A DNA stretch of 64,000 nucleotides from Amphibalanus amphitrite (taxonomy: Eukaryota; Arthropoda; Thecostraca; Balanomorpha; Balanidae). How positions within the stretch are numbered: the stretch's first letter is position 1; every line of letters starts with the position of its first letter. The notes below the pieces were generated by a model. That model was not told the DNA's origin. It did no database searches and saw only the letters and a program-made list of their open reading frames with translations. The position numbers and the translations under genes are program-made. The stretch lies in the NCBI RefSeq assembly GCF_019059575.1, contig NW_024882036.1, forward strand, positions 391,501 through 455,500, given 5' to 3'. Below, piece by piece: positions 22,347-52,084 of the stretch.

Positions 22347-23268
22347 TTAACCCTCGCCCGCACATGGGGGGGGGGGTGGTTGCCACCCCCCCCCCCCCCA
22401 GGTAGTCTTTCTGCTCTGCACTCAACATTTTTAGAGCTAGAAGGCTGATTTTTCGTATAGCTGCTCCTCTATCCTTTCTTGATGTCCACTGAAAATTTCA
22501 AGTTTCTGTGATTTTTGGTTTCGGAGATATGACCTTGTTTTTCAGGTCATGTCATGACCCAAATGGCCAATTCTCAACATCTTTCACTTGCCATGGGCCT
22601 TGTGAGCTTTTGACACCCTGATTTCGGCCTTTTTTGCCAGTCTTACCTCCCACCTATCATGGAACATGTAGTTCGACGATGTACAGGGGTCAAGGTCAGG
22701 GTCAAGGTCAACCTAGGTCATCTAAGATAATTGCGTTTTAGGCAAGCTGAATTTACTTTTTGTGAAGTTTTTTGACTGCATTTTTGGTAAAAGCTTCTCA
22801 GATCATGATTTCATGTAATATGGACCCAAAAACAATCGGTGCACACATCAGTATACACACAGACACACACAGACATACAAACACATATAATTGACCTTGA
22901 CCTAACTTGACCTGAAATGACCTCAGCAGCAAAATTATGGTCGGGTAGTGTGACAAAGAGGTTCTAGCTGGCTTGGCACCAGAAAACAGCATCGTCATCG
23001 GTATTTGATAAGCAGCGCACTTGATATCCAACGGTGACCCAAAACAGCAATATTTTTTAGTTTGACCTGACCTGGAAGGTCAATGATTGACCTGAGAAGG
23101 TAAAACTGGGTATCGTTGGATTCGTCTCTTCCCAAAGAATCTTTTTGGTCTTTACTGCTAAGCTCTATCTCCAACAGGAACGAAATGGCGCGGGGGGGGG
23201 TGGCAACCACCCCCCCCCCCCCATGTGCGTTCTAGGATGGGAAAATAGCATGTGCGGGCGAGGGTTAA
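22347..23268. mobile_element. Hairpin-ended TTAA element A (double-hairpin family)
   Basis: TTAA flanks a TIR, CCCTCGCCCGCACATG at 22351-22366, repeated in inverse at 23249-23264. Directly inside each TIR is a hairpin of a G run, a TGG-TTG-CCA core and a C run. At the right end CATGTGCG occurs twice, at 23222 and 23249. The interior is non-coding and holds several TGACCT/AGGTCA hexamers (22690-22720, 22890-22925, 23062-23095). The TTAA flank and CCC start resemble piggyBac-type ends. It is nested in the 21378-23375 element. Confidence 0.8.
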
Positions 23269-23375
23269 GACGTTTCCATGAGTTTTGAAGGTATGGATAA
23301 GTTATAAAAATCCGGTTCTCTTTATCTGGGCCATTAACTCCATACGGTCCAGGAAAGCTGGCACACTACCTTTAA

Positions 23376-25217
23376 TTACTTAGGTGGCTGGTGGCTCGCT
23401 TTGAGGACGGTGGTCCTTTAGGCGAGCGCTAAAAAAAGAGAGATAAAAACGCCACAGTCCATAATTTTAATTATACACCAAGCGGACCCTAACTCATCAG
23501 TAACACAGACCAGTGCCTAACACAGCAAAGACCGCAGGGTCCAATTTGACAGAGATAAGAGTCTCAGCTCGGTATCCATAGGGTCTGAGCTCGACAGACT
23601 GAGAGCGGACCAAATCCTCACCTCGGAAGCAAACAAAACCTTTTCTCCGATCCGAACGACACAAACCAGGGTCTTCGCCCGACACCGGGCTCGGCTCGAC
23701 AAAGTACAAGGCCTATCTCTACAGACGCAGGACTCGACCCAGGACTCAGCTCTGTATAGAGTTCTTCGCTAGGCGCAGCATAGGCTCAGCTCAGTTTTTC
23801 ACTCGACTCAGGGCTCAGCTCGGCACCGGCTCAGCGCCAGCCTCGGTGTCGTAAAGCGTGGATCGTTATCGATGGACCGCCGGCAGTGACCGGTTTATGA
23901 TTATTGGACGACGACGGGGCCGACGGCTCACCGGCATCAACAAACCGGTGCCATCGCAGGGAGCTCAACAAACCAGGTGCCATTGCAGTGAGCTCCTGGC
24001 CCCTGCACTCGGAATGGTATGGTTACTGAATGGTTATGGTTGCTCTGAATTAATGCGCGAAAGCCGGCTCATAATGTCGTGAATATTCAGAATATCTCAC
24101 CAATGCCGGGAGCATTTCAAACATCCTAGGACCCGGCAACATTCGGACCAATCAGAGATTTCGAGAACATCAGAACTCTCGTTTTGAGAAGACATTCTGA
24201 ATATCCGACCGTCTGCAGGTCAACAGTTAAAAGGTAACTGTGCTTCACAAGATATGGAGAACAAATACTCAGACTGCTCAGACTCTGAATTAATGTGCAT
24301 AAGCTGGCACAAGAGGGTCTCAGATCCTTGATTAAGAGTCATCTCTTTCCGTTCCAAATGGCTGCAATAACACGTGCTGAACTTTCAGCGGGCGTGCAGG
24401 TGCAGTTCTTATTTACAGAGCATGCAGAGAATGTGCTTATCAGTGTAGATTGTAGGGTGGATGGTGACTTGGTTCTGCCATTCTCAAAAGATCACTTAAA
24501 GTGCTATGGCAACTGAGCCATCCTTATGCTTCCTCAAATACAACCTTTTCTCCAAACAATGCACCCTTAACTTGAAGATAATTCCCGAAGAAAATTTGAT
24601 TATTCATGCATACAGAAAACAAACCACACCTTACACAAATTTACATGAATTTACGTCGCTCAATTTCACAGATTTTTGCCATTGAGCTATTTTCATCCCT
24701 ACGTTAGGAAACCCACGGGCCATCAGTGCGTACGAGTATTTCCTACACCGGTGGTGCCTGCATTATTTATTAGTACACGTTCCGAATCACAGCACCCACA
24801 GTCAATTATTGATCGACGTGTTGGCACAACAATCACCATGCCCGAAGTGTTTGGCCTGGACTGCGTCTTGGCGTGGACAATGAACATCCAGTCAGCATCG
24901 CTGGTGACCCAACTGATCCTGTAGGGACTGAGGCTTAGTCCGTAACATTTTCCCAACTTTATGTGTTTCGTTCTATTGTTTGGGTTAGGAATTAACGAGG
25001 ACTAGGGATTGTATGCATAATTTGATTTTGAGTTATGTCGCGTGGATGTTGAATGCCAACGACGAGGTCAAATATTAGCATTGTTGGGTTCATTTGCGTG
25101 TCAATTTCCTGGCGTGCTGTTGAATGGCAATCGTGCCTTTTTCATACATATTCACAATTCGCGTAAGTGTTGATTCAAGTCTCAGTATTGCCTATTCATT
25201 CATTCATTCAGCAAACA
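23376..25217. other. No gene recognised
   Basis: The interval contains a partial direct repeat (CAACAAACCGGTGCCAT at about 23938 and again at about 23967) and a repeated TCTGAATTAATG motif at about 24043 and 24282. No conserved protein frame was seen. It lies within intron 2 of the minus-strand three-exon gene. Confidence 0.4.
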
Positions 25218-25445
25218 TCTCTCTCTCTCTCGCTCTCGCTTTCTCTCTCTCTCTCTCTCTCTCTCTCTCTCTCTCTCTCTCTCTCTCTCTCTCTCTCTCT
25301 CTCTCTCTCTCTCTCTCTCTCTCTCTCTCTCTCTCTCTCTCTCTCTCTCTCTCTCTCTCTCTCTCTCTCTCTCTCCCTCTCTCTCTCTCTCTCTCTCCCT
25401 CTCTCTCTCTCTCTCTCTCTCTCTCTCTCTCTCTCTCTCTCTCTC
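25218..25445. repeat. Long CT (GA on minus) microsatellite beside a splice donor
   Basis: About 228 bp of nearly pure (CT)n. Read on the minus strand it is a GA tract starting about 15 nt after the exon 2 donor of the three-exon gene. The long Ser-Leu and Glu-Arg frames across it are artefacts of the repeat. Confidence 0.97.
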
Positions 25446-50580: not shown

Positions 50581-50890
50581 GCCCGGGGGCACCACAGGCC
50601 TACCAGGGGCACCACCGACCTATCAGGGGCACAACAGACCTGACAGGGGCACCACCAGCCTAGCAAGAGCACCACAGGTCTGCCAGGGGCACCACAGACC
50701 TGTCAGGGGCACCGCAGGTCTTCCAGGGGCACCAAAGGCATTCCAGAGGCACCACCGGCCTCGCAGGGGCACCTTGGGCCTGTCAAGGGCACCACGGACC
50801 TGTCAGGGGCACCTCAGGCTTGTCAGGGCCCAGGGGCACCACAGTCCTTTCAGGAGCACCACAGGCCTGTCGGCTGTCAGGGGCACCAGA
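50581..50890. repeat. GGGGCACCACAGGCCTGTC-type minisatellite, left part
   Basis: About fourteen imperfect units of 20-22 bp with consensus close to CAGGGGCACCACAGGCCTG. The array continues at 52085-52440 on the other side of the CTAG-flanked insertion, so it was one array. Confidence 0.95.
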
Positions 50891-50893
50891 ATC

Positions 50894-52084
50894 CTAGCCC
50901 GCACGGGGCTGGGGGGGGGGGGGTAAATTTTACCCCCCCCCTCGCGAATTTTTGCAATATCTCAAAAACGGCGGCGCGCAGCGCCGCCAAACTTTCAGTA
51001 CCTTTTCTTACATCAATGTGACACGTTCTCTGAAAATTTGAGCGAAATCCGTCGGAATTTTGTTTTGAGAAATTGACGTTTTAGTGACGTCATGTTCGCC
51101 ATTTTCGCCTCAAAAACGGCAAAACTTCAAACGCCGTTAACATCTTCATTTATAAAGGAATCAAGACGTAACAAAAAAAGGTTATACGTAATTCTACTTT
51201 GTCTATCAAATGGCTATCTCGGTTTTTAGAAAATTTTGGCTTTTGGCCCAAATTTTTTTCCAAAAACTGACTTTTTTGGGAAAATAATTATAAAATCCAA
51301 AATTTTTCGTGTATCGAAAAAACCGGAATATATGTCAGAGAAGTGGTCTATGTGCACCTACATACCAATTTTTAGAAAAATCGGTTCAAAAGTGTGGTAG
51401 TTATTCAAAATTTGATGACGTCACGACACACAAAAATTTTGAAAAATGATTTTTGTGGAAGTTCTAGACCTCGTACGGAAACAAAAATAGCACCATTCGA
51501 TTTGCCGTGAAAAACTGCATCAGATAGACACCTTTAACAAGCAACTTCAAAATTTGACCTCACTTGACCTGACCTTGACCTGACCTCGACCTGAAATTCA
51601 TCCAGAGGTGGTCCATATCACTTATTGAGTGTGCCTATCGAATTCTATGAGTAAAATGACCCATAAAACATGCGTCGCACATGCCCTTTTCTATATTTTG
51701 TTTTTGGTGACCTGACTTGACCTAACCTGACCTTGATCTTGACCTCTGAATGATATTGTATGCAACGAATATTGTCTTTGTAGCCTAAGAATGCACGTTT
51801 TGGGCAATCAGTCTCAGTCCATGACTCCATTCTTCGGCAACTACGGTGCAAGGCCGATACTGTAGACACTTGCAATTTGTACCCTTGACCTGACCTTGAC
51901 CTTGACCTCAAACTTTAAATTACGTACATGTTTTTAGTTGTTCGCGATGAGATCTTTCGATTGGCGTTTGAATTTTCCAAATCGGACCATTAGTTCGGGA
52001 GATAACAGGGGGGGGGGGGTAAAATTTACACCCCCCCCCCAGCCCCGCGCGTTCGGCTGGAGACCCCAGCCCCGCGCGGGCTAG
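50894..52084. mobile_element. Hairpin-ended CTAG element C (double-hairpin family)
   Basis: CTAG flanks TIRs CCCGCACGGGGCTGG (left) and its inverse with one change (right). Inside each TIR is a hairpin of a G run, GTAAATTTTAC-type core and a C run. CAGCCCCGCGCG occurs at 52040 and again at 52067. The interior has CTCAAAAACGGC with a short GC palindrome, GTGACGTCATG, and three clusters of TGACCT hexamers (51556-51595, 51708-51748, 51882-51910). CTAG occurs in the minisatellite unit it entered, supporting a 4-bp target duplication. Confidence 0.85.

Follow-up and report, generated by a model that had tools for sequence, protein, structure and literature searches.

A right-end tip repeat at a spacing of 26–28 bp in piggyBac elements of Amphibalanus amphitrite

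The two ends of the piggyBac element (IFP2) of Trichoplusia ni (T. ni) are asymmetric, a property that Chen et al., 2020 term 'puzzling' and 'enigmatic' (PMC7351741). According to that paper's passages on the ends, base pairs (bp) 34–63 of the right end (RE) are almost identical to bp 7–35 of the left end (LE), which corresponds to an offset of 27 (PMC7351741). With the wild-type transposase, only LE35/RE63 is described there as active for both excision and integration, LE35/LE35 being inactive, and the accompanying model, backed by activity data, assigns the tips to a catalytic dimer and has a further dimer bound inside it, mainly at the right end (PMC7351741). The passages on the piggyBat transpososome likewise describe two dimers, the outer one catalytic and the inner one inactive, at other spacings (PMC11707139, PMC13405395). 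Mechanism and layout are therefore known for the type element. Here we consider a 64,000-nucleotide stretch of the Amphibalanus amphitrite genome (GCF_019059575.1, contig NW_024882036.1, positions 391,501 to 455,500 of the forward strand; the window), in which three elements, E1, E2 and E3, repeat part of the right-end tip 27 bp further in. This repeat is a true, non-random feature of the right end. It is ordinary in kind, being explained by membership of the T. ni branch, and is of interest for the breadth with which it occurs.

Three piggyBac elements and their right-end repeat

The initial annotation of the window had placed pairs of repeats at 23222/23249, 47102/47129 and 52040/52067, at the right end only, and all three pairs are present in the sequence. 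When each end is read from the element tip and homopolymers are excluded, the longest direct repeat of every right end lies at offset 27, namely CGCACATG (8 bp) in E1, TTGCTGGGG (9 bp) in E2 and CGCGCGGGGCTGGGG (15 bp) in E3, the last at the annotated position but longer than had been noted. The left ends lack an offset-27 repeat, their best direct repeats being 4 bp at 58 (E1), 5 bp at 36 (E2) and 6 bp at 21 (E3). The 'hairpin' of the same annotation exists as a palindrome, but is probably best read as a site for the C-terminal zinc domain of the transposase rather than as an extruded hairpin; the annotation did not name the piggyBac family. Element boundaries were placed by target duplication, and the parts are as follows (palindromes are unstranded).

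22351..23264, + strand: E1, non-autonomous piggyBac element, 914 bp, flanked by TTAA at 22347-22350 and 23265-23268
22351..22366, + strand: E1 left-end tip CCCTCGCCCGCACATG, which the palindrome adjoins directly
22367..22399: E1 left palindrome (G-run, core TGGTTGCCA, C-run), presumed site of the cysteine-rich domain (CRD)
23192..23221: E1 right palindrome
23222..23229, - strand: E1 inner tip copy, right-end bp 36-43, offset 27
23249..23264, - strand: E1 right-end outer tip, right-end bp 1-16
46210..47142, + strand: E2, non-autonomous piggyBac element, 933 bp, both flanks TTAA
46226..46244: E2 left palindrome GGGGGCGTTAAACGCCCCC, centre at bp 26 from the tip
47072..47090: E2 right palindrome, centre at bp 62 from the tip, C-run extending toward the inner copy
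47099..47107, - strand: E2 inner copy TTGCTGGGG, right-end bp 36-44, offset 27
47126..47142, - strand: E2 right-end outer tip, bp 1-17
50898..52080, + strand: E3, non-autonomous piggyBac element, 1183 bp, with CTAG duplication at 50894-50897 and 52081-52084, within a 20-bp tandem repeat
50911..50941: E3 left palindrome, core TAAATTTTA
52008..52036: E3 right palindrome
52037..52051, - strand: E3 inner copy CGCGCGGGGCTGGGG, right-end bp 30-44, offset 27
52064..52080, - strand: E3 right-end outer tip, bp 1-17

E1–E3 are non-autonomous piggyBac elements, as seen in their TTAA duplications, their CCC...GGG tips and a palindrome near each end. TTAA stands on each side of 52 of the 63 copies with both ends; identical flanks other than TTAA occur in five (CTAA twice, ATAT twice, CTAG once) and unlike flanks in six. 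Identical non-TTAA duplications are located at E3 in the window (CTAG) and at locus L050. Although the E3 of the window has CTAG, 24 of the 27 two-ended copies of its family have TTAA on both sides. Both tips of E1, both tips of E3 and the right tip of E2 begin with CCC or end with GGG; the left tip of E2 is CAC, where seven other E2 copies have CCC. All six ends hold a palindrome with 9–15 paired positions per half, and the open reading frame (ORF) list of the window has no ORF of at least 120 amino acids (aa) wholly inside E1, E2 or E3 (that at 50537-50926 overlaps E3 but starts in the flanking repeat). Two other identities were dropped. The idea that E2 duplicated a 9-bp target (TTAACACGC at each flank) is at odds with the seven other E2 copies, which start CCCGCG at the left tip, and the apparent match is explained by a C-to-A change plus a chance match. 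Replitron (HUH) ends, suggested by the hairpins, were set aside once piggyBac-type tips and duplicated TTAA sites had been recognised.

Within the window, a loosely specified end pattern matches only the six ends of E1–E3. Owing to its altered left tip, E2 escaped a search for matching tips with equal 4-bp flanks, which returned E1, E3 and the inverted repeat near 21926. Just left of E1, the two 77-bp arms of a perfect inverted repeat (21921-21997 and 22066-22142) enclose a 68-bp loop. TGACCT-rich stretches lie toward the right end of E1–E3 (22900-22922, 46756-46963 and 51552-51908) and elsewhere in the window (9854-9886, 14359-14391, 44425-44454 and 58801-58830); we take these units to resemble nuclear-receptor half sites.

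Copies were sought in the whole genome (807.6 Mb, 2644 contigs), the best 40 candidates being scored of 500 for E1, 1461 for E2 and 1128 for E3, and 68 copies were examined (30 E1, 8 E2 and 30 E3, window copies included). In all 68 the best right-end repeat is at offset 27. This inner-copy offset is constant, whereas G-runs of different length move the centre of the left palindrome, which is found 24–34 bp from the tip (exact-core left ends: 24 E1, 6 E2, 24 E3). The 40 scored copies of the E2 right end, itself included, are 97–100% identical, and listed right ends within one family are 96–99% alike; the constancy of the offset within a family is therefore uninformative.

Spacing and inner copies across right-end families

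Right ends were sought across the genome with the pattern TTAACCC-N30..50-G6-N3..16-C6, which leaves tip sequence and repeat unconstrained and makes offsets of about 18–40 possible. It has 21,961 forward matches vs 9 for the reversed pattern, and the left-end pattern (N6..14) has 17,822 vs 0. Reverse-strand counts (72,481 and 56,248, respectively) are inflated because a single site can match repeatedly; from twice the forward count we estimate about 44,000 right ends genome-wide, which at about 1 kb each would amount to near 5% of the genome. Ungapped clustering placed 100 listed right ends in 26 families, and these together with E2, the L081 element and a family seen in L057 give the 29 families compared here.

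For each family, bp 6–14 of the tip were scored against the inner sequence and a unique best partner was sought. This nine-base scoring places the partner at 27 in 17 of the 29 families, at 26 in seven and at 28 in two; an earlier seven-base scoring of 26 families gave 27 in 14, 26 in six, 28 in three and ties in three. Scanned over 14–31 bp, the unique best match falls at 26–28 in 27/29 families. The initial annotation's offset of 27 is right for the three elements and their family copies, but other families have 26 or 28, and 'exactly 27' is the commonest value (17/29) in a range of 26–28 across families, not a constant. Its wider claim, that spacing is kept with little sequence conserved and at one end only, holds over the 29 sampled families, among which the broad distribution of offsets that would speak against it was not seen. 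Poly-G and poly-C runs ease spurious matches, and the repeat might be put down to chance or to the low complexity of G/C-rich ends. When the stretch between tip and palindrome was shuffled, 0.6 families were expected to have a unique best match at 26–28 of at least the observed quality, vs 27 observed, and among 60 unrelated stretches of viral contigs that fit the pattern, three have such a repeat (two of the three with the same sequence); we regard such an artefact as next to impossible.

The inner copy follows the tip of its own family. Taking the best of offsets 26–28, it matches its own tip at 7.24 of 9 positions and the tips of other families at 4.17, the own tip being best or joint best in 25/29 families; with free choice over 17–31 bp the values are 7.28 and 5.08 (own tip best or joint best in 23/29), and at the single offset of 27 the corresponding values are 5.79 and 3.29. 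None of 20,000 permutations was as good in any of these three scoring forms. Mean identity between families is 0.45 for tips (bp 4–14), 0.37 for inner copies and 0.33 for the spacer. These figures bear on a frozen accident, in which a duplication in one ancestral right end was inherited by all families and its spacing was never selected. The families are indeed related and their members closely alike, as such an inheritance would have it. However, spacing is kept at 26–28 bp in 27/29 families whose tips and spacers have diverged this far, and inner copies track the changed tip of their own family. In the homologous T. ni element, moreover, inner copy and spacing are both reported to matter: transposition falls by about half when the inner copy is randomised (RE63mut) and also when 5 bp are added with the intention of breaking the phase of the two dimers (RE68) (PMC7351741). 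A frozen accident is, in our judgement, very improbable.

Transposases, pairing of ends and a proposed mechanism

Transposases of the superfamily were sought with PF13843. Of 232 candidates 116 were scored, all above the cut-off and many in open frames of 550–690 aa, and the 14 control genomes gave 0 matches. Twelve transposase loci (L070–L081) were inspected, and two of them hold elements with TTAA flanks, ends like those of E1–E3 and the right-end repeat at 27: L078:319-4281 (3963 bp) and L081:637-5351 (4715 bp). Each locus has one ORF >300 aa (PF13843 E-values 2.2e-69 and 9.3e-60), whose best match among solved structures is the T. ni piggyBac (6x67/6x68). Both proteins align to 6x67 through the C-terminal cysteines and, judged by this alignment, would carry a CRD of the T. 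ni kind; the T. ni aspartates at 268, 346 and 447 (numbered from the alignment), which we take to be the catalytic triad, face aspartates in both. Their transposases are candidates as a type, and a protein of this kind may be the partner that moves E1–E3.

Five other transposase elements with paired ends (L070, L071, L074, L075 and L077) have CCCATTA tips. Their proteins are of the MGG[VT]D kind, with a different C-terminal cysteine pattern, and the one compared, from L074, has piggyBat as its best hit among solved structures (1.7e-27 vs 6.8e-10). Their best tip repeats reach 6–8 of 10 at offsets of 24–69, and none stands at 26–28 among the best three matches listed per end. At L074 the CCCATTA element is nested inside a 3906-bp G-run element. 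For L072, L073, L076, L079 and L080 no matching end pair was found within the DNA examined. In this small sample, then, end layout and the kind of C-terminal zinc domain vary together, two T. ni-type elements having the repeat and five CCCATTA elements being without it, an association for which common descent alone could suffice.

Ends also pair in one way. Among inward-facing end pairs >150 bp apart at loci L001–L081, 53/53 distinct pairs are left-right, a count in which a common family of both ends was not part of the criterion; most loci were chosen by a right end, and therefore only the other end was free to vary. L078 and L081 are left-right too, and stand outside the 53 because a further end lies nearby. 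Four apparent left-left or right-right elements were rejected as neighbours sharing one TTAA (L030, L057, L078) or as an internal palindrome (L006). Two abutting piggyBac elements with one common TTAA are seen at L013:2053-2056, L030:795-798, L046:1721-1724, L057:1720-1723 and L078:315-318, where the flank of one element probably served as the target of the other.

Taken as a whole, E1–E3 are very probably transposase-less piggyBac elements with the asymmetric ends of the T. ni type, their mechanism probably being, by homology, that of T. ni. At the left end the tip would be the site of the transposase core domain, followed by the palindrome as the CRD site. The right end consists of the tip, a spacer of about 10 bp, a second tip-like site 27 bp in and then the palindrome, and is therefore a left end with a tip module of 26–28 bp placed in front. 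A catalytic transposase dimer would synapse the two outer tips, and a second, non-cutting dimer would occupy the inner copy and right palindrome. The offset, about 2.6 helical turns, may set how the two dimers are phased, and it may be the difference between left and right that leads the transposase to join a left end to a right one. The phased transposase units of the initial annotation agree with the published T. ni model, which has two dimers and not two subunits. The inner copy might instead be a regulatory or spare site unneeded for synapsis, for example an inhibitory one like the third left-end site of piggyBat, where a subterminal transposase site is described as inhibiting transposition (PMC11707139). 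Against this, randomising the inner copy is reported to lower the activity of T. ni piggyBac (PMC7351741), and an inner copy is present in 27/29 sampled families, so that we think a merely regulatory or spare role unlikely.

We lean slightly towards a more general statement, that the T. ni branch as a whole obeys a register of 27 ± 1 bp and pairs left with right ends, an architectural rule like the 12/23 rule in spirit, with dozens of families in this genome having diverged in tips and palindromes and kept the register. Several observations weigh against the reading of E1–E3 given above. Two families have tied offsets (27 or 33; 26 or 28), and the family CCCGCGCCGTGCC has a weak best match at 25. 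Offsets obtained via the best-fitting left end (20 families with at least 8 of 10) are 27, 26, 28 and 25 in 11, 5, 3 and 1 families, a slightly wider spread. When 27 is imposed on every family, no more than 17/29 inner copies have their own tip as the best or an equal best match. The 100 right ends sampled by pattern, out of 21,961 forward matches, all come from the first 2.9 Mb of contig C1. Clustering was ungapped, and a single-base change in spacer length divides at least one family (CCCTCGCCCGTATT) into two, one counted at 27 and the other at 26. The 29 families share ancestry and are not 29 independent origins; the spacing figures therefore describe the families and do not count origins. 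In T. ni the phase break is reported to halve activity without abolishing it (PMC7351741), and in piggyBat motif spacing is given as 44 bp on the left and about 32 bp on the right (PMC11707139).

The window also holds features apart from these elements. An inverted repeat of 57 bp, 98% complementary and with an 80-bp loop, lies at 35979-36172, and a 73-bp unit stands four times in tandem at 12067-12358, the two middle copies being identical; the array might come from duplication at the start of an exon, or from the assembly. ORFs at 1306-2676, 2969-4483 and 26014-27252 match retrotransposon endonuclease and reverse transcriptase families.

Comparison with known systems

The closest described system is the T. 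ni piggyBac pair LE35/RE63, which according to the passages on it shares the TTAA target, the asymmetric ends, a palindromic CRD site at both ends, a right-end insertion in which a tip segment is duplicated at offset 27 and, as predicted for the L078 and L081 proteins, the kind of C-terminal CRD. Unlike in T. ni, the palindromes here have cores that differ by family, set between long G-run and C-run arms, their centres lie at different distances from the tip in different copies (seen at left ends), and a single genome contains many different tip sequences. The Myotis lucifugus piggyBat belongs to the same superfamily and is described as having TTAA and asymmetric ends (PMC11707139, PMC13405395), but its right end is described without a palindrome and its CRD has another fold (PMC11707139). 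By the C-terminus of their proteins, the five CCCATTA elements appear to resemble this branch. The coral CMITEs are likewise small TTAA elements with piggyBac-type tips and several families that differ in their tips, but they are about 100 bp long with a conserved interior, and the abstract and first part of the results make no mention of a right-end repeat (PMC2872659).

A conserved 27-bp offset was not found stated in titles and the openings of abstracts, although a published survey may exist, nor is an offset kept at 26–28 bp over many families stated in the passages on piggyBac and piggyBat. What these families add is comparative evidence, gathered outside the T. ni element, for a second site and a phase that are kept while sequence changes. 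If the rule is true, the genome offers a natural collection of transposases with matching ends, in which the pairs may be orthogonal to one another, and orthogonal families could serve as transgenesis tools. Set beside the known systems, what is new here is breadth: an offset of 26–28 bp over many families, with an inner copy that follows its own tip.

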